Shown in pieces: positions 3,082-10,298 of a stretch of DNA of 10,298 bases. Under the pieces are notes generated by a model, which saw only the letters and a list, made by a program, of their open reading frames with translations, did no database searches and was not told the origin of the DNA. The position numbers were made by a program, and so were the translations under genes. The first letter of the stretch is position 1. Every line of letters starts with the position of its first letter. Source of the DNA: Natrialbaceae archaeon Tc-Br11_E2g1 (GTDB lineage Archaea; Halobacteriota; Halobacteria; Halobacteriales; Natrialbaceae); the NCBI GenBank assembly GCA_001564255.1, contig LKNC01000080.1:1-10298 (forward strand). The letters run 5' to 3'.

Positions 3082-3897
3082 ATGAGTGACCTGCGCCTCG
3101 ACGCCACACAGCTCGATCGGTACTCGAGACACGTCATCATGGACGAGGTCGGCCCCGACGGACAGAAGCGACTGCTCGACGGTTCCGTACTCGTCGTCGG
3201 TGCCGGCGGACTCGGCTCGCCGGCGATCCAGTATCTGGCGGCGGCCGGCGTCGGCGAACTCGGGATCGTCGACGACGACGCGGTCGAACGCTCCAATCTC
3301 CAGCGACAGATCGTCCACGGCGACGCCGACGTCGGCCGACCCAAGGTGGTGAGCGCGACCGAGTACGTCACGACCCAGAACCCGGACGTCGACGTCACCA
3401 CCCACGGGACCCGTCTGACCGCCGAGAACGTCGCCGAAATCCTCGAGGGGTACGACGTCGTCTTAGACGCCAGTGACAACTTCGCGACCCGGTACCTGCT
3501 CAACGACTACTGCACCCTCGAGGGGATCCCCCTCTCTCACGGCGCGATCTACCGCTTCGAAGGGCAGGTCACGACGTTCGAGAACGACGGCGACGGTCCG
3601 TGCTACCGGTGTGTCTTCCCCGAAGCACCCGAGCCGGGCACCGTCCCCGACTGTGCGACCACCGGCGTCCTCGGCGTCCTGCCGGGCACCGTCGGCTGTA
3701 TCCAGGCGACGGAGGTCATCAAGTACCTGCTCGAGACCGGGGAGACCCTCGAGGGGCGCCTGCTGATGTACGACGCGATGGGAATGAGCTTCGAGACCGT
3801 CGACATCCGACGCGATCCGGCCTGTCCGGTCTGTGGTGAAAAGACGGAAATCGAGTCGGTAGAAGACGTCTCCTACGAGGGGACCTGTACGATGTAA
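3082..3897 (+). CDS. ubaA: UbaA: ubiquitin-like E1 (MoeB/ThiF/HesA family) activating SAMPs
   Basis: E1-like enzymes adenylate the C-terminal Gly of ubiquitin-fold proteins. In Haloferax volcanii UbaA activates the SAMPs for protein conjugation (sampylation) and for sulfur transfer to molybdopterin and tRNA thiolation. This 271-residue protein is full length for the family. It has the N-terminal RYSRHVIMDEVG (13-24), the nucleotide loop VVGAGGLGSP (38-47), ERSNLQRQ (69-76), the metal/ATP DASDNFATR (129-137), and the crossover region with the probable catalytic Cys191 in VPDCATTGVLGVLPG. Four zinc ligands are present, C174-x2-C177 (CYRC) and C248-x2-C251 (CPVC). No rhodanese domain follows, as in other archaeal members. 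It is cytoplasmic and seems monocistronic. A JAMM protease gene lies about 600 bases downstream. MoeB-only function cannot be excluded from sequence. Confidence 0.92.
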   Translation: MSDLRLDATQLDRYSRHVIMDEVGPDGQKRLLDGSVLVVGAGGLGSPAIQYLAAAGVGELGIVDDDAVERSNLQRQIVHGDADVGRPKVVSATEYVTTQNPDVDVTTHGTRLTAENVAEILEGYDVVLDASDNFATRYLLNDYCTLEGIPLSHGAIYRFEGQVTTFENDGDGPCYRCVFPEAPEPGTVPDCATTGVLGVLPGTVGCIQATEVIKYLLETGETLEGRLLMYDAMGMSFETVDIRRDPACPVCGEKTEIESVEDVSYEGTCTM

Positions 3898-4056: not shown

Positions 4057-4341
4057 TCAGTCGATGTGGCCTTCGCGCCGGAGCTGGTCTGCGTCCTGGC
4101 CCGTGTAGCGCCACTCGATGTTCGCTTTCTCGTCTTGCCAGTCCCACGGTTCCGCGAGAACGACGTCGTCCTCGTTGATCCAGGTCCGGTATTTCATCCG
4201 GCCGGGGATCCGACCGAGTCGCTCCTCGCCGTCCTCACAGCGCAAGCGCACGTGGTTCCCGCCGAGGTGTTCCGTTACGACCGCGAACAGTTCGTCACTG
4301 TTAGGCATCCGGAGGTTCCGGCGCCCTGTTTCTTCGCTCAT
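4057..4341 (-). CDS. eif1A: Translation initiation factor aIF1A
   Basis: aIF1A binds the small ribosomal subunit at the A site and works with aIF1 and aIF2 in selecting the start codon. The protein has 94 residues, normal for haloarchaea. A basic N-terminal tail (GRRNLRMP, 6-13) leads into the OB fold: [19 protein letters not shown] (17-35), [19 protein letters not shown] (44-62) and [16 protein letters not shown] (64-79), then a C-terminal helix, [12 protein letters not shown]. The PGRM-K-x-R-x-W and PWDWQD-K motifs are diagnostic. The ATG at 4341 is chosen because CTTAAA on this strand lies about 26 bases upstream. Haloarchaea often carry more than one aIF1A gene, so this may be one of two paralogues. 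It has its own promoter. Confidence 0.95.
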
Positions 4342-4505: not shown

Positions 4506-4910
4506 TCAGCTCTCGACCACCATCTCACGTTCGAACCCCCCATCACGAAAGCGCCAGGAGCCGACCTCGAACGGGGTAACGGAGACGATGACGTAGGACC
4601 GATCCGGCCAGGTCGCCGCCTCGAGGTCGGTTTCGCTCGGTTCCGCCGGCCCACGGGGGTGGGAGTGATAGAAGCCGACGATCCCCTCACCGTCGGCCTC
4701 GAGGCGCTCGAAGATCTCGAGGGCTTCCTCGGGGTCGAGGCGATATCGTGTCCGTGGCTCCTCGGCGGCGTTTGCGGCGTGGTAGGACGACCGAACGTGG
4801 CTCCAGTCGGCGTCGAACTCGCCGCCGAGGACGCCACAGACCTCCTCGGGTGTCCCCTCGCGTGCCCTGGCGACGATCCCCTCGCGAACGTCGGCGGGGA
4901 GGACGATCAC
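4506..4910 (-). CDS. JAMM/MPN metalloprotease (candidate desampylase)
   Basis: A 134-residue protein with a single MPN+ (JAMM) domain. The motif is complete: Glu23 in TPEEVCGVLGGE (20-31), then GFYHSHPRGPAEPSETDLEAA with His82, His84, Ser92 and Asp95 (H-x-H-x7-S-x2-D). Enzymes with this zinc site cleave isopeptide or linear bonds after a ubiquitin-fold Gly-Gly; the haloarchaeal HvJAMM1 removes SAMPs from targets. A related bacterial/archaeal group acts on Cys or sulfur-carrier proteins, so the substrate here is inferred. The start is a GTG at 4910, inside a GTGA overlap with the stop of the BtuF-like gene, and gives the normal small-JAMM length. Longer readings of this frame run back through that gene and are arginine-rich shadow sequence. 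It is probably co-transcribed with the BtuF-like gene. Confidence 0.9.
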   Translation of the reverse strand: MIVLPADVREGIVARAREGTPEEVCGVLGGEFDADWSHVRSSYHAANAAEEPRTRYRLDPEEALEIFERLEADGEGIVGFYHSHPRGPAEPSETDLEAATWPDRSYVIVSVTPFEVGSWRFRDGGFEREMVVES

Positions 4911-5827
4911 GCCTCGACGCCCCACTCGAGGTCGGCGAACGGAACGGCCACGTCCGCGGGTGGCTCCTCGAACCGATCGGGGTGGACGATCCCCGCGAGG
5001 TACTCGGCGGTGTCGACGATCCGTGGCCCCGGGCGGTTGACGTAGTGGTCGCCGTCCATCGCCCACACCCGTCCCTCGCGGACGGCAGTCAGATCCGCCC
5101 ACCCCTCCCGGTCGGTCAGGTCCGAGCGGTTCCGGGCGACGTCCGCCAGCCCGTACCCACAGGGGGCGACGACGAGCAGTTCGGGATCGTATTCACGGAC
5201 CGCCGCCCACTCCCGTGGCGTCGAACGGTCGGCGGGGTCGGCCATCCCGTACTCGCCGCCGGCGGCCGCTACGAGTTCGGGCATCCAGTGGCCCGCGACC
5301 ATCACCGGATCGGTCCAGTCGAAAATGACGGTTCGGGGTCGGTCCTCGAGGTCGACGAGCCGGTCCCGGACCGTCGCGAGCCGTTCGCGCAGCCTCGAGA
5401 CCACCCCTCTGGCGTGGCTCTCCCGACCTGCGGCCCGGCCGATGCGCTCGATATCGCCCATGACGTCCGCGACCGTGTTCGGATCGGTCGTCACGATCTC
5501 GGGGTCGGCGTCGATCTCCGCGACCGCCCGCTCGATCTCGGCTACGTCGACCGCACAGACCTCACACATCCCCTGGGTGACGATCAGGTCCGGTTCGAGG
5601 TCGTCCAGGGTTTCGACGTCGACCTCGTAAACGCCCGCATCGGCGACCTCGAGTACCTGCTGGTCGATCTCCGCGCTCGAGGCGTCGGTGTCGATCCGCG
5701 AGTTCGTGACCGCGGGGGCCGACTCGACGCCCGGCGGGTGATCACACTCGTGGGAGACGCCGACGGGTTCGAACCCGAGCGCATGGACGATTTCCGTCGC
5801 GGACGGGAGCGTCGTAACGATTCGCAT
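4907..5827 (-). CDS. BtuF-like (cobalamin/Fe-siderophore type) binding protein without signal peptide
   Basis: A 306-residue two-lobed periplasmic-binding-protein fold of the BtuF/FepB class (COG0614). The N-terminal lobe begins RIVTTLPSATEIVHALG (2-18) and VGVSHECDHPPG (22-33), and contains DLEPDLIVTQGMCEVCAVD (76-94). A long helix with basic and acidic residues (125-160) links it to the C-terminal lobe, with MVAGHWMPELVAAAGG (176-191) and YDPELLVVAPCGYGL (213-227). The family usually binds cobalamin or siderophores outside the membrane for an ABC importer. Here no signal peptide or lipobox is present, so it should stay in the cytoplasm and may have another ligand; the CEVC pair (Cys88, Cys91) could bind metal or be redox active. 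The ATG at 5827 is supported by a TATA element about 28 bases upstream. No permease or ATPase gene is near. Confidence 0.85.
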   Translation of the reverse strand: MRIVTTLPSATEIVHALGFEPVGVSHECDHPPGVESAPAVTNSRIDTDASSAEIDQQVLEVADAGVYEVDVETLDDLEPDLIVTQGMCEVCAVDVAEIERAVAEIDADPEIVTTDPNTVADVMGDIERIGRAAGRESHARGVVSRLRERLATVRDRLVDLEDRPRTVIFDWTDPVMVAGHWMPELVAAAGGEYGMADPADRSTPREWAAVREYDPELLVVAPCGYGLADVARNRSDLTDREGWADLTAVREGRVWAMDGDHYVNRPGPRIVDTAEYLAGIVHPDRFEEPPADVAVPFADLEWGVEA

Positions 5828-5850
5828 AGCCGTCCTTACGGGCTGGATCG

Positions 5851-5859
5851 GCTTAATAG
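5851..5859 (-). promoter_or_regulatory. TATA box of the BtuF-like/JAMM operon
   Basis: CTATTAAGC on the minus strand, centred about 28 bases before the ATG at 5827. The spacing fits a leaderless transcript and argues against the longer reading that begins at 5869. Confidence 0.5.
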
Positions 5860-5920
5860 CGAGCGACACACGGTACGTTTCATGTCGTCGAGGAAAACCC
5901 CCGAGACGGTCCCGCCAGCG

Positions 5921-6421
5921 TCACGCAGGTAAAGATACCCGGCTTACCGGCAGCCGATAGGAGCCATCGAAGAACTCGAGTCCGTTGACCGTCCACGTGA
6001 TCGGCTCGATCTCCCGGTCGGTGAGCCGTCTGGCGGCCTCTAGGTCCCCACCACGGGCGAGGGTGACGTGGGGGACGTAGTCGTCGGCTTCCAGTCCCTC
6101 GACCGCGCCGAAGGCGTCGACGAGGTCGGCGTGGATCGACTCGAGGCCGGGGCTCTCGACGGCCAGGTAGACGACCGGCGCGTTCCCGAGGGGCGGATCC
6201 TCGAAGACGTCGATCCCCGTGACCCGTGCCTCGACGGCGGGTGCGCCCTCGAGGGCGCGGTGGGTTCGGTGTTGGAGCTGGGCGACGTGGTCGGCGTCGC
6301 CGAGGCGCTTGAGCAGCAACGAGTGGTTCTCGCGGACGGTCTCGAACGTCGACAGCGACGGATACAGGCCGGCTGCGAGTTCGCGAACGCGACCGGGGAC
6401 CGGAACGTTGACGCTGTACAC
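5921..6421 (-). CDS. 2'-5' RNA ligase / cyclic phosphodiesterase family protein (2H superfamily)
   Basis: A 166-residue 2H phosphoesterase-like protein. The first catalytic motif is H33-S-L-L (ENHSLLLKRLG, 31-41), a variant of H-x-T-L with Ser for Thr, and the second is H118-V-T-L (PHVTLARG, 117-124); they are spaced as in the family. Members join or hydrolyse 2'-5' or 2',3'-cyclic phosphate RNA ends; the natural substrate in haloarchaea is unknown to me. The start is uncertain. A GTG at 6421 gives the family-like beginning MYSVNVPVPGRV. A GTG at 6508 would add 29 residues that do not look like the family, but it has the better-placed TATA element (6531-6538). I prefer 6421 with the upstream part as a leader. 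Its 3' end lies 93 bases before the BtuF-like start, which has its own promoter. Confidence 0.85.
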   Translation of the reverse strand: MYSVNVPVPGRVRELAAGLYPSLSTFETVRENHSLLLKRLGDADHVAQLQHRTHRALEGAPAVEARVTGIDVFEDPPLGNAPVVYLAVESPGLESIHADLVDAFGAVEGLEADDYVPHVTLARGGDLEAARRLTDREIEPITWTVNGLEFFDGSYRLPVSRVSLPA

Positions 6422-6482
6422 GTAGGTCGATGTAGGTAGCGGTTCGGCTATGAGTCTGGTGGTTTCTCCGGACCGATCACGG

Positions 6483-6506
6483 GACCGTCCGCATTCGGGG
6501 ACGGTC
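6483..6506. repeat. Perfect 8-base inverted repeat upstream of the RNA ligase-like gene
   Basis: GACCGTCC (6483-6490) and GGACGGTC (6499-6506) flank an 8-base loop. If the minus-strand transcript starts near 6508, as the TATA position predicts, this hairpin forms at its extreme 5' end. It could be a leader structure or an operator. Confidence 0.4.
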
Positions 6507-6530
6507 ACTCCCCGGGGACACTCAATTCAC

Positions 6531-6585: not shown

Positions 6586-7650
6586 ATGGGAACGGGGTAC
6601 CGGGTGCTCGTGTGTACCGTTTTGCTACTCGGGTGTCTGGTCGGTGGTGTGATCGTCGTGGGGGGGACACCCGACACAGGCGATGGTGTCGTCGACCGTC
6701 CGGCTGGCGGACAGGGAGAGCCCTCGCTGTCGGGGTACGACGAACTCCGGTACGAGGTCGAACTTCGGGATGACGGGTCGGCCTCCTGGACAGTCGAGTA
6801 CCGCTACCGGTTAGACGACGACAACGAGAGCGTCGACTGGGAGGCCCTACAGACCGACGTCGAGGACCGATCGGATCGGTACCTCGAGTCCTTCGAGAGC
6901 GACGTGCGGGCGGACGTCACCGAGGCCGAAAACGAGAGCGGCCGGGAGATGTTCGCGTCGGGCTTTTCGATCGAGACCGACGAGACGAGTACGGCACCCG
7001 AGTACGGCTACGTCCGGATCGGCTTCGAGTGGGACTCGTTCGCCCACGTCGAACTCAACCGCATCGAAGCCGGTGACGCACTCGGGTGGCTCGAGCTCGA
7101 CGAGCGGGTCGTTTTCGACGTCGCCTGGCCCGAAGAGTACAGCGAGACGACGGCCGAGCCGACACCCGACGACCGCCGGGAAACCGCGGTCATCTGGCAC
7201 GGCGAGGAGACGGAGTTCCGGGACGGGGAACCCCGAATAGAGGTGATGGACACCGGGGGTGAGCCGGTCGACGCCGGCGAGCAGCCGGATCGGTTCTACA
7301 CGTTGCCGTGGCTCGTCGTCGCCGGCGCGGTCGCCCTCACCGTCGCCGGAGTTGGGTGGTGGGTGACGCGGGGCGAGGAAGACCCCCTGGAGAGCACCGA
7401 ACCGACCCACCCGGAGGGTGGGACGGAACCGGACCGGCCACCGCCGGAACTGCTGAGCAACGAAGAACGGGTCCTGTGCCTGATCGAGGACCGTGGCGGC
7501 CGGATCAAACAACAGGAAGTCGTCTCGGAACTCGAGTGGACGGAAGCGAAGACCAGCCAGGTCGTCGGCCAGCTCCGGGAGGACGGTGAAATCGAGGTCT
7601 TCCGGATCGGCCGGGAGAACGTGTTGGCGTTGCCAGACGACGATGACTGA
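6586..7650 (+). CDS. Membrane-anchored winged-HTH protein (one-component regulator)
   Basis: A 354-residue protein. Residues 1-27 are a hydrophobic signal sequence (VLVCTVLLLGCLVGGVIVVG). Residues 50-222 form an acidic beta-rich domain, starting YDELRYEVELRDDGSASWTV. A transmembrane helix lies at about 239-260, followed by an acidic, Pro-rich linker (262-288), and a C-terminal winged HTH at 290-350: NEERVLCLIEDRGGRIKQQE, VSELEWTEAKTSQVVGQL, and a wing ending FRIGRENVLALP. The extracellular-domain/TM/cytoplasmic-HTH plan is known from haloarchaea (I recall DUF7345 plus DUF7343-type domains). It suggests that an outside signal is passed to DNA without a kinase. LLGC at 14-17 resembles a lipobox, but no twin-arginine precedes it, so lipidation is doubtful. 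The gene is monocistronic; a role in controlling argGH downstream cannot be judged. Confidence 0.85.
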   Translation: MGTGYRVLVCTVLLLGCLVGGVIVVGGTPDTGDGVVDRPAGGQGEPSLSGYDELRYEVELRDDGSASWTVEYRYRLDDDNESVDWEALQTDVEDRSDRYLESFESDVRADVTEAENESGREMFASGFSIETDETSTAPEYGYVRIGFEWDSFAHVELNRIEAGDALGWLELDERVVFDVAWPEEYSETTAEPTPDDRRETAVIWHGEETEFRDGEPRIEVMDTGGEPVDAGEQPDRFYTLPWLVVAGAVALTVAGVGWWVTRGEEDPLESTEPTHPEGGTEPDRPPPELLSNEERVLCLIEDRGGRIKQQEVVSELEWTEAKTSQVVGQLREDGEIEVFRIGRENVLALPDDDD

Positions 7651-7676
7651 TAGCCGTCTCCGTCGTTCACGTACTT

Positions 7677-7687
7677 CTGTCTGACAG
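7677..7687. repeat. Short palindrome CTGTC-T-GACAG
   Basis: A perfect 5-base inverted repeat with a one-base centre, lying inside a wider pair CCGTCGT (7660-7666) / ACGACGG (7694-7700). With no room for a loop, the short one is more likely a protein-binding dyad than an RNA hairpin. It sits just after the membrane HTH gene and about 36 bases before the TATA-like box that leads to the Arg-rich ORF. Confidence 0.25.
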
Positions 7688-7721
7688 TATCACACGACGG
7701 TGTCCGGGTGGGATCGACAGG

Positions 7722-7729
7722 GTTTAGTA
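7722..7729 (+). promoter_or_regulatory. TATA box of the arginine-rich leader ORF
   Basis: GTTTAGTA is preceded by GATCGACAGG and centred about 30 bases before the ATG at 7756. The predicted transcript would start within a few bases of that ATG. It is separate from the promoter directly before argG. Confidence 0.45.
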
Positions 7730-7755
7730 CAGCGGTCTTGCTACTCCCCTAGCAT

Positions 7756-7836
7756 ATGCAACCGCCCGCGTCGGCTGGCTCCGCCTTTTTCGACAGCCAC
7801 GCGGCCGTCATCTCGCGGCGGCGACGGGGCCGGTAG
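7756..7836 (+). CDS. Candidate 26-aa arginine-rich leader peptide upstream of argG
   Basis: A short ORF reads MQPPASAGSAFF, then DSHAAVISRRRRGR and a TAG. Five of the last six residues are Arg (codons CGG CGG CGA CGG, GGC, CGG). It begins about 30 bases after a TATA-like box, so the message would be almost leaderless. A stable hairpin overlaps its last codons and stop. Its position upstream of argG and argH, whose product pathway ends in arginine, matches the logic of amino-acid leader peptides, where the ribosome stalls when the charged tRNA is scarce. I know of no proven example of this in haloarchaea. The GC-rich CGG repeat could also give Arg runs by chance. Whether it is translated is unknown. 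Confidence 0.45.
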   Translation: MQPPASAGSAFFDSHAAVISRRRRGR

Positions 7837-7840
7837 GCCC
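7827..7840 (+). promoter_or_regulatory. GC hairpin over the end of the Arg-rich ORF
   Basis: GGGCC (7827-7831) pairs with GGCCC (7836-7840) around the loop GGTA. The left arm contains the end of the fourth Arg codon and the last Arg codon begins in it; the TAG lies at the loop/right-arm border. A ribosome paused on the Arg codons would cover it, and a freely moving one would release it. No strong T run follows directly; the nearest, CTCTTTTCC, lies about 70 bases further on (7911-7919). Confidence 0.4.
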
Positions 7841-7941
7841 TACTTTACCCCATCTCCGGTTACGGAACCAGTTCGGCACGAGAAACCCAGATTTCCCGCG
7901 TAGTGACTGCTCTTTTCCAAATATTCTAAATCTAAATCAGT
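7837..7941. other. Non-coding stretch between the Arg-rich ORF and the argG promoter
   Basis: There is no supported gene here. The part before 7910 is of mixed composition, with no clear structure beyond the hairpin at its left end. From 7911 it becomes AT-rich: a T run (CTCTTTTCC), then CAAATAT and a tandem hexamer, TCTAAA TCTAAA (7925-7936), directly before the argG TATA element. The T run could end the leader transcript; the tandem hexamers could be part of the promoter or a binding site. Confidence 0.4.
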
Positions 7942-7950
7942 GAATTTAAG
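7942..7950 (+). promoter_or_regulatory. TATA box of argGH
   Basis: GAATTTAAG is a strong match, centred about 34 bases before the argG ATG, so the expected transcript begins a few bases before the ATG. Three GTCC repeats (7950-7961) follow. The inverted repeat TCCGA-TTTCT-TCGGA (7959-7973) then covers the predicted transcription start and is a reasonable operator candidate. Confidence 0.5.
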
Positions 7951-7979
7951 TCCGTCCGTCCGATTTCTTCGGATACGAC

Positions 7980-9200
7980 ATGACACGCGTGGCACTTGCG
8001 TTCTCGGGCGGACTGGACACGACGGTCTGTGTCCCGCTGCTCGAGGAAGAGTACGGACACGACGACGTAATCGGCGTCACCGTCGACGTCGGCCAGCCGG
8101 CCGAGGAGTTCGACGAAGCCGAAGAGACCGCCGAGGCACTCGGCCTCGAGTTGCACGTCGTCGACGCGCGGGAGGAATTCGCGCAACTCTGTCTCGAGAG
8201 CGTTCGCGCGAACGCCTCCTATCAGGGTTACCCGCTTGGCACCGCACTCGCACGCCCGGTGATCGCGAACGCGATCCTCGAGGTTGCGAAAGAACGAGAC
8301 TGTGACGCCGTCGCCCACGGCTGTACGGGCAAGGGCAACGACCAGCTGCGCTTTGAGGCGATCTGGCGTGACTCCGATCTGGACGTCTACGCACCCGTGC
8401 GCGAACTCGGTCTCACCCGCGAGTGGGAACAGGAGTACGCCGAGGAGAAAGACCTGCCCGTCGAAGGCGGCAGTGGCGGCGACTGGTCGATCGACACCAA
8501 CATCTGGAGTCGCTCGATCGAGGGCGACGAACTCGAGGATCCGAACTACGTCCCACCCAAGGAGATCTACGAGTGGACCGCAGAGCCCACCGGGGAGACC
8601 GAAGAGATCGAAATCACCTTCGAGAACGGCTATCCCGTCGCCGTCGACGGCGAGGAGATGGGTTCGGTCTCGCTCATCGAGCAGCTGAACGAACTGGCCG
8701 GGGCCTACGGCGTCGGCCGCACGGACTCGATGGAAGACCGTATGCTCGGCCTGAAGGTCCGTGAGAACTACGAGCACCCCGCGGCGACGACGCTTTTGAA
8801 CGCCCACGAGGCACTCGAGGCGCTCGTGCTCACCCAGGAAGAACGCGAGTTCAAACAGCTGGTCGACCAGCGCTGGTCGAAGAAAGGCTACGAGGGTCTG
8901 GTCGACGCCCCGCTCGTGGACGCACTCGAGGGCTTCATCGCCGAGACCCAAAAACGCGTCACCGGCACCGTCACGATCCGCTTTGAGGGTGGCCAGGCAC
9001 GCGCCGTCGGCCGTGACAGCGAGTACGCCGCCTACTCGGCCTCTCACGCTTCATTCGACACCGAAACCGTCGGCTCGATCGAACAGGAAGACGCCACCGG
9101 CGTCGCCAAGTACCACGGCTTCCAGCGTCGCCTCGCGAAGAAGGCAGCCCAAAAGGCAGCGGGGACGGAACTGAGCGCCGACGGCGGGAGCGAAGAGTGA
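7980..9200 (+). CDS. argG: Argininosuccinate synthase
   Basis: ArgG joins citrulline and aspartate, using ATP, to make argininosuccinate, the penultimate step of arginine synthesis, in the cytoplasm. The 406-residue length is normal. Residues 9-14 (SGGLDT) are the N-type ATP pyrophosphatase P-loop. IGVTVDVGQP (31-40) follows, then YQGYPLGTALARP (81-93), which contributes to citrulline binding, and HGCTGKGNDQLRFE (113-126), which binds aspartate and the adenylate. The SIDTNIWSRS stretch after residue 165 is also typical. The last 25 or so residues are rich in Lys/Ala and then acidic, a common haloarchaeal tail. The ATG at 7980 directly precedes the conserved start TRVALAFSGG. argH follows after one base, so the two are co-transcribed. 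Confidence 0.97.
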   Translation: MTRVALAFSGGLDTTVCVPLLEEEYGHDDVIGVTVDVGQPAEEFDEAEETAEALGLELHVVDAREEFAQLCLESVRANASYQGYPLGTALARPVIANAILEVAKERDCDAVAHGCTGKGNDQLRFEAIWRDSDLDVYAPVRELGLTREWEQEYAEEKDLPVEGGSGGDWSIDTNIWSRSIEGDELEDPNYVPPKEIYEWTAEPTGETEEIEITFENGYPVAVDGEEMGSVSLIEQLNELAGAYGVGRTDSMEDRMLGLKVRENYEHPAATTLLNAHEALEALVLTQEEREFKQLVDQRWSKKGYEGLVDAPLVDALEGFIAETQKRVTGTVTIRFEGGQARAVGRDSEYAAYSASHASFDTETVGSIEQEDATGVAKYHGFQRRLAKKAAQKAAGTELSADGGSEE

Positions 9201-9201
9201 G

Positions 9202-10298
9202 ATGACCGAGGAGAGCGAAGACGAGAGCGTCGTTCGCCGCGACCGGTTTAGCGGCGGCCCCGCGCGATCGTTCCTCTCCTCACTCGAGGCCGATCGGCGG
9301 ATCTTCGAGGCCGACCTCGAGGTCGACCGCGCCCACGTCCTCATGCTCGCCGAGTGTGACGTGATCGGCGACGACGTGGCCGGCGCGATCTTGCAGGCCC
9401 TCGACGCGGTCGAAGTCGACGGCCACGACTCGCTGCCCGACGGCGAGGACGTCCACGAGGCGATCGAAACCGCCGTCATCGACCGCGTCGGCGACGAGGG
9501 CGGGAAGATGCACACGGCACGCTCGAGAAACGACGAGGTCGCCGCCTGCATCCGCTATCGCCTGCGCGAGGACGTCCTCGAAACGCTCGAGGCCACGATC
9601 GGCCTCCGGGAAGCGTTACTCGAGGTGGCCGCCGAACACCTGGAGACGGTGATGCCCGGCTACACCCACCTCCAGCCCGCCCAGCCGACGACGGTCGCCC
9701 ACTGGGCGCTGTCATATGCGGGGACGATCGCCCGCGACACCGAACGCTTGCTTTCCGCCTACGGCCGGATCAACCGCTCGCCGCTTGGCGGGGCCGCCTT
9801 CGCGGGCACGACGTTCCCGATCGACCGCGAGCGCACCGCCGAGTTACTCGGGTTCGATTCGGTGATCGAGAACTCGATGGACGCCTCCTCGAGTCGGGAC
9901 TTCCTCCTCGAGACGACGGGGGCGTTATCGACGCTCGCGACGACGCTGTCGGGGCTCGCCGAGGACGTCATCGTCTTCGCCAACCGCGGCTACGTCGACC
10001 TCTCCGATGACTACTCGTCGACGTCGTCGATCATGCCCCAGAAGAAAAACCCCGATACGCTCGAGCTCGTCCGTGCGGTCGCGGGCGACGCGGCGGGCGG
10101 GGTCCAGGGCCTTTCGACGACGCTGAAGGGACTGCCACGCGCGTACAACCGCGACCTCCAGCGGGCGACACCCCACGCCTGGGAGACGGTCGACGCCGTC
10201 TGTCAAGCGAGCGAGGTCGCCGCCGGCGCAGTAGCGACGGCCGACTGGAACGGGGACGTGCTCGCCGAGGCTGCCGGCGAGGGCTTTGCGACGGCGAC
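9202..10298 (+). CDS. argH: Argininosuccinate lyase, 5' part (runs off right edge)
   Basis: ArgH splits argininosuccinate into arginine and fumarate. The first 365 residues are present, most of the enzyme; roughly the last quarter is outside the window. Fumarase/aspartase superfamily landmarks are in order: KMHTARSRNDEVA (102-114), GYTHLQPAQPTT (153-164, with Thr155 and His156) and the signature SSIMPQKKNPD (275-285), with catalytic Ser at about 276 and Lys281. The acidic N-terminal tail (MTEESEDESVV) precedes RRDRFSGGPA, which is the family start. The ATG lies one base after the argG stop, and GGGAG at 9186-9190 is a possible ribosome site about 11 bases upstream. In many haloarchaea argGH is followed by the LysW-dependent argX/lysX group; that cannot be seen here. 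Confidence 0.96.
   Translation, partial: MTEESEDESVVRRDRFSGGPARSFLSSLEADRRIFEADLEVDRAHVLMLAECDVIGDDVAGAILQALDAVEVDGHDSLPDGEDVHEAIETAVIDRVGDEGGKMHTARSRNDEVAACIRYRLREDVLETLEATIGLREALLEVAAEHLETVMPGYTHLQPAQPTTVAHWALSYAGTIARDTERLLSAYGRINRSPLGGAAFAGTTFPIDRERTAELLGFDSVIENSMDASSSRDFLLETTGALSTLATTLSGLAEDVIVFANRGYVDLSDDYSSTSSIMPQKKNPDTLELVRAVAGDAAGGVQGLSTTLKGLPRAYNRDLQRATPHAWETVDAVCQASEVAAGAVATADWNGDVLAEAAGEGFATA

Follow-up and report, generated by a model that had tools for sequence, protein, structure and literature searches.

A putative arginine-sensing leader ORF upstream of argG in haloarchaea, with parallel leaders before ilvB, pheS and a second trpS

The argG locus and the parts of its leader

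We analysed a window of 10,298 nucleotides, i.e. the whole stretch of DNA considered here, which is one contig from a 68%-complete haloarchaeal assembly. Its 3' part is occupied by the argininosuccinate synthase gene argG (7980..9200, + strand; PF00764, PF20979) and the argininosuccinate lyase gene argH (9202..10296, +; PF00206), the latter truncated by the window end. In the same-genus genome G001, argG stands first in a row of genes on one strand (argG-argH-LysX-type ligase-argC-acetylglutamate/acetylaminoadipate kinase-ArgD-type transaminase-LysW-lysine-hydrolase-type deacetylase-argF-thrC; the transaminase, ArgD-type, scored below the NCBIfam cut-off), and thus the leader described here heads an arginine operon. 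A protein with DUF7345 and DUF7343 domains is encoded just 5' of the leader (6586-7647, +), and other genes of the window encode a ThiF-family protein (3082-3894, +), an eIF-1A-like protein (4060-4341, -), a JAB-domain protein (4509-4865, -), a periplasmic-binding-protein domain protein (4910-5869, -) and a 2'-5' RNA ligase family protein (5924-6508, -).

The whole leader element, on the + strand like all its parts, spans 7716..7861, where covariance model R1 matched with an E value of 9.1e-23, the window's own leader being one of the 33 used to build that model. A sequence-only reading of this DNA had pointed to a TATA-like box at 7722-7729 with an ATG about 30 bases later; we found the box TTTAGTA of a distal promoter (P1) at 7723..7729 and the ATG at 7756, 33 nt from the start of the box, a leaderless spacing. 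The leader ORF (7756..7836) has 26 codons, MQPPASAGSAFFDSHAAVISRRRRGR*, and ends in Arg-Arg-Arg-Arg-Gly-Arg-stop, exactly as had been read before. Within the ORF lies a first hairpin, with its 5' arm (A) at 7767..7777 and its 3' arm (B) at 7794..7803, followed by the Arg codon run CGG CGG CGA CGG GGC CGG (R R R R G R; 7816..7833). The GC hairpin previously noticed over the last codons is our hairpin 2, formed by GGGCC (5' arm C, 7827..7831) and GGCCC (3' arm D, 7836..7840), which enclose the leader stop codon TAG (7834..7836). A G-free tract of 17 nt, made of C, T and A, comes next (7841..7857). The T run that had been reported after the hairpin held only in a weak form, since no more than TTT occurs near the hairpin and the one TTTT, at 7913, lies between leader and argG.

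The second promoter suspected before argG was also recovered: the proximal TATA box AATTTAA (P2; 7943..7949) stands 37 nt 5' of the argG ATG (7980), and would give a near-leaderless argG mRNA. By reading of the sequence, P2-like TATA boxes are present in the loci of relatives as well. From 5' to 3', the TATA box is therefore followed by the start codon, hairpin 1, the Arg codons, hairpin 2 with the stop enclosed, and the nearly G-free tract; hairpin 1 inside the ORF, the G-free stretch and the family-wide codon bias described below had not figured in the sequence-only reading.

Conservation, codon usage and RNA structure

We examined 40 haloarchaeal argG loci, comprising the 30 best argG matches from 41 genomes and the 10 haloarchaeal loci out of 80 returned by a further search (among them Haloferax, Haloarcula, Halosimplex, Halogranum, Halobaculum, Halonotius and a Natronomonas MAG). 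Of these loci, 39 carry a leader built in this way: 35 were found by rule (TATA-like box, start codon 28-36 nt downstream, at least 4 Arg) and 4 were placed by eye (L003, L019, L034 and L038). The one locus with no leader (L039) belongs to a second copy of argG in MAG QS_4_69_34, which lies directly 3' of another gene. A stricter blind rule selected 31/40 argG upstreams and 0/137 control upstreams, the controls being those of hisG, thrC, trpE, trpD, trpC and the ordinary trpS. The comparison that the sequence-only reading had proposed, i.e. a search for a reading frame conserved, with its Arg-rich end, ahead of argG in other haloarchaea, thus came out in its favour.

A covariance model built from 33 argG leaders (six with long inserts were excluded) matched, at an E value no higher than 0.01, 269 out of 293 genomes and 80 out of 87 genera, and the positions of the matches were compared with argG coordinates for the genomes common to the 41-genome and 293-genome sets. 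Several of the 24 genomes with no model match are small or incomplete. Among the non-haloarchaeal archaeal argG loci (within L040-L056), a regex search found no ORF of the leader kind. In a background screen of 400 kb, the first rule set gave 0 matches and a looser one 3 unlike matches; this looser screen is insensitive, because it recovers just 27/39 argG and 7/30 pheS loci. Window positions 7600-8000 had no Rfam 15 match up to E 5, and none of six loci that carry a leader of the Arg, Ile/Val, Phe or Trp type matched Rfam 15 at the gathering threshold.

The distance from TATA box to start codon was 30-34 nt in the 35 rule-found loci; leaderless transcripts make up 72% of the coding transcripts of Haloferax volcanii (PMC4983044). 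The 39 leaders start with ATG (37) or GTG (2) and are 23-53 codons long, with the Arg tail in frame throughout. Arg accounts for 38% of the last 12 residues and 13.5% of those before, and every leader has at least 2 Arg in its last 12 residues. Over the last 36 nt, the Arg count was 4.6 in frame vs 2.6 and 1.1 in the other forward frames. The Arg codons of the last 12 positions (n=179) were CGA 63%, CGG 26%, CGT 8% and CGC 3%, whereas those of the argG bodies (n=557) were CGC 75%, CGT 13%, CGG 8% and CGA 3%. Relative to 172 long ORFs of G001 (CGG 33%, CGC 32%, CGA 18%), the leader Arg codons are likewise biased, family-wide, to less-used synonyms (CGA at 63% vs 18%, CGC at 3% vs 32%). The leader of the window itself uses CGG four times and CGA once, and for this leader the rare-codon argument is weaker because its run is CGG-rich and CGG is common in the genome sample.

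Hairpin 2 was found by search in 39/39 leaders. In the 33-row MAFFT alignment, RNAalifold showed changes on both sides that keep pairing at 2 of the 4 consensus pairs, for instance a swap of GGGCC/GGCCC to GGCCC/GGGCC in L029 and L032. The stop codon lies within the hairpin-2 span in 34/39 leaders and is not kept there in 5/39. L008, L013, L030 and L033 have lost the stop codon within hairpin 2, and their leader frames continue; the segments of L008 and L013 used for codon permutation extend beyond hairpin 2, since their frames stay open.

Hairpin 1 was not recovered by RNAalifold on that alignment, which gave hairpin 2 only, nor did a column-pair scan yield an aligned hairpin 1, because its register and sequence vary between families. 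It was therefore tested through codon permutation and in 13 gap-free rows. Against codon permutations, z was negative in 36/39 leaders, with a value of 0.05 or less in 19/39 and a Stouffer score of -10.7, which is overstated because relatives are not independent. In the 13 gap-free leaders, 84.6% of cells pair vs 21-48% in slid versions, and the covariation score was reached by 1/500 shuffles; the inner pairs are frequently disrupted in these 13 rows, and additional pair types did not exceed those of shuffles. No conserved alternative helix (antiterminator) stood out in the alignment, either by RNAalifold or by column-pair scan.

The first 17 nt after hairpin 2 contained G at only 13 of 663 positions (17 nt in each of 39 leaders), and the next 43 positions contained 371 G of 1677. 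TTTT was found within 17 nt of hairpin 2 in 0/39 leaders, and within 40 nt in 2/39. With no U-tract, we rejected the reading of hairpin 2 as a canonical terminator. An archaeal U-tract terminator, defined after PMC8716108 and PMC7237163 by a 3'-terminal run of at least four Us, was not found either.

Matching leaders before other genes

Leaders with codons that match the downstream gene were found before three further genes. An Ile/Val leader of the same two-hairpin plan precedes ilvB in 22/23 loci (L162-L184); it ends in I-V-G-A with ATT and GTA codons, and its hairpin 2 is of the GUAGGGGC...GCCCCUAC type, with the stop within. The ATT share of Ile codons in these leaders was 72% vs 7%, and this share was not selected, whereas the GTA share of Val codons (73%) was partly selected, because leader picks required a GTAGG- or GTCGGG-like string. 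Before pheS, a leader with a Phe run (...GFGFFFAR*) was found in 21/30 loci (L132-L161), with the arms of its hairpin 1 around CGAATCCC and GGGATTCG; L133 and L155 have variant leaders recognised by eye and missed by the rule. A CGGTGGA-like stretch is conserved 3' of the stop of the pheS leaders. The Stouffer scores from codon permutation were -6.7 for the ilvB leaders and -7.1 for the pheS leaders, overstated in the same way as for argG. The G-poor tract is weaker in ilvB leaders (32 G of 374) and was not seen in pheS leaders. Finally, a second trpS is preceded by a W-R-W (Trp) leader in 8/11 loci (L187-L197), in a variant plan that has the Trp codons in the hairpin 1 loop.

The argG model linked the argG and ilvB leaders independently: of 18 loci examined among its lesser matches on 15 genomes, 6 were fragments of argG leaders, 4 belonged to ilvB leaders and 8 were unrelated. 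No shared His or Thr leader was found before hisG (24 loci) and thrC (30 loci), and no shared leader before the ordinary trpS (19 loci). The upstreams of trpE (25 loci), trpD (18) and trpC (21) had scattered unlike ORFs only, with no shared Trp leader.

Proposed mechanism, alternatives and known systems

We consider it likely that this stretch is a cis-acting leader in which translation of a tiny ORF would report arginine supply to the arg operon. Arginine sensing by the leader, as judged from its sequence, is well supported by the codon choice, the two hairpins and the matching-codon leaders before ilvB, pheS and the second trpS, which favour the arginine-sensing leader that had been suggested from the window over a free-standing micro-protein. 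The read-out, namely what hairpin 2 would do, we infer; transcription, translation and arginine response of the leader are predicted.

Transcription would start at or next to the leader ATG, as the 30-34 nt TATA spacing suggests, and a ribosome would trail RNA polymerase, pass hairpin 1 and reach the Arg codons. When charged tRNA-Arg is scarce, the ribosome would stall at these codons with its footprint over the 5' arm of hairpin 2, hairpin 2 would be blocked and the polymerase would probably continue into argG. When arginine is plentiful, the ribosome would reach the stop codon and depart, hairpin 2 would fold 5' of the G-free tract, where the transcript would presumably be terminated or destabilised. 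More speculatively, hairpin 1, a few codons past the leaderless start, may pace the polymerase or bar further ribosome loading, in which case one pioneer ribosome would decide.

Assuming a 30-nt footprint, at least 2 Arg codons put the ribosome on arm C in 39/39 leaders, and the predicted probability of hairpin 2 averaged 0.88 when free vs 0.21 when masked. This probability was still at least 0.4 at the first masking codon in 14/39 leaders, and below 0.5 even when free in 5/39. On the footprint geometry and the predicted drop in pairing, a stall would mean no hairpin 2 and completion would mean hairpin 2.

The sequence-only reading had seen argG's own promoter as a problem for attenuation, and that objection stands: an argG-proximal TATA is present in most loci, which counts against an attenuator. 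At loci that have a P2, the leader would tune an added supply from P1; in lineages with no P2 it would be the main switch. No searched TATA-like string occurs between hairpin 2 and argG in 6/39 loci (L025, L027, L029, L035, L036 and L038), so that the leader transcript would be the only obvious source of argG mRNA there, and P1 and P2 coexist elsewhere; L078 has only ATTA, near the hairpin, and L033 has TTTATA at -70. L025, L029, L035, L038 and L078 show a further possible hairpin about 30-60 nt 5' of the argG start, and CA-rich sequence at that start. Two blocks conserved 5' of the argG TATA are possibly operators: TTAGC...GCTCT in window-family loci, and CTATAGGCATCTCT in L024, L032 and L057.

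According to PMC7237163 and PMC8716108, archaeal terminators are U-tracts and usually need no hairpin, which, given the lack of TTTT close to hairpin 2, counts against the reading proposed here. In an H. volcanii reporter, one hairpin motif terminated 59% of transcripts (PMC7237163), so hairpin-based termination is possible in this species.

The alternative that survives best, which we nevertheless regard as fairly unlikely, is a post-transcriptional read-out with no true terminator, in which the state of translation governs how the leader-argG RNA is cleaved or decays at the G-free tract, with the termination nuclease aCPSF1/FttA as one candidate, or how accessible the argG start is. It would fit a hairpin 2 with no U-tract downstream and a strongly conserved G-poor single strand 3' of it, and has a bacterial precedent in Salmonella orf34/speF, where Arg codons direct how the RNA folds and its decay by RNase G (PMC6386406); against it, aCPSF1 is described in PMC8716108 as a binder of U-tracts, which are absent here, and argG RNA from P2, where present, carries no leader.

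Very improbable, in our judgement, is the separate micro-protein that the sequence-only reading had kept as an alternative, i.e. a free-standing gene for a small basic Arg-rich product acting in trans and merely adjoining argG. Its own promoter, the conserved start, stop and Arg-rich end, and the separate promoter of argG in window-type loci would suit such a gene, but the peptide outside the Arg run varies widely between families while the RNA pairing persists, the codon choice of the run departs from that of gene bodies, and Ile/Val, Phe and Trp versions precede the matching genes.

A structured non-coding RNA or DNA-level element, with the Arg run as a by-product of GC-rich pairing, has if anything slightly poorer prospects. 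The hairpins are conserved, hairpin 2 is GC-only and CGG-rich DNA yields Arg in one frame, as this explanation would have it; yet the Arg count is highest in the reading frame (4.6 vs 2.6 and 1.1), the leaders retain their start codon, stop and leaderless spacing despite varying length, most Arg codons lie 5' of the hairpin, and the control upstreams gave 0/137. A chance ORF, which had been raised because the ORF is short and the DNA CGG-rich, is refuted by the conservation (39/40 loci, 269/293 genomes, 31/40 vs 0/137) and can practically be dismissed; the 400-kb background screens also speak against it.

Beyond the argG leader, we tentatively suggest that haloarchaea may own a general class of ribosome-sensing leaders, in which case ribosome-mediated attenuation would have its first archaeal example. 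They would be leaderless ORFs that carry Arg, Ile/Val, Phe or Trp codons between two hairpins, the stop in the second, and that switch amino-acid operons as well as tRNA-synthetase genes by means of a hairpin and G-free tract, a signal for termination or cleavage that resembles neither the bacterial U-run terminator nor the archaeal U-tract. That one anatomy recurs with four amino-acid/gene pairs across haloarchaea suggests that archaea, too, use transcription-translation coupling for regulation and that leaderless mRNAs can support it. It also suggests that there may be a termination or cleavage signal not described so far.

Ribosome stalling on a leader peptide is a classic way of controlling amino-acid genes in bacteria, and the trp, his, leu, ilv, thr and pheST leaders are known bacterial ribosome-mediated transcription attenuators. 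We found no description of leader-peptide attenuation in archaea in the open-licence literature, in line with the earlier remark that such control is not established in haloarchaea. The haloarchaeal leaders share with the bacterial attenuators a short ORF before a biosynthetic operon or tRNA-synthetase gene, a run of product-amino-acid codons near the ORF end, a hairpin just past the stalling site and, commonly though not universally, less-used synonyms. They differ in their archaeal host, the leaderless-type start, the stop inside the second hairpin, masking, as modelled, in place of a visible antiterminator, and the extra argG-adjacent promoter in most loci. Hairpin 2, present in all 39 leaders, has no U-run; the leader would thus work like a ribosome-mediated attenuator, and we do not class it with the bacterial kind because a terminator hairpin with U-run was not found.

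Likened by description, Salmonella orf34/speF also has Arg codons in a leader ORF at which ribosome pausing under low arginine alters the fate of the RNA, but it is bacterial, controls polyamine synthesis and involves Rho and RNase G (PMC6386406). The uORF of the Corynebacterium ilvBNC mRNA, reportedly an attenuator (PMC10272879, PMC11857589), resembles the haloarchaeal ilvB leaders, again by description, in lying before ilvB, and differs in being bacterial.

Closest in host are the uORFs in long 5'-UTRs of H. volcanii given in Table 2 of PMC4983044. The uORF section of that paper gives no regulatory reading from codon content, hairpins or conservation; argG and ilvB are absent from its list, and all 16 uORFs are said there to have a low isoelectric point. 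In the same table, pheS (HVO_2948) is preceded by a uORF of 26 aa and a tryptophan-tRNA ligase gene (HVO_A0127) by one of 23 aa; judged by the genes that they precede rather than by sequence, these are probably the Phe and Trp leaders found here. The class suggested above would explain these uORFs, reported with no function before pheS and a trpS, and the genetic tractability of H. volcanii makes the leader hypothesis directly testable.
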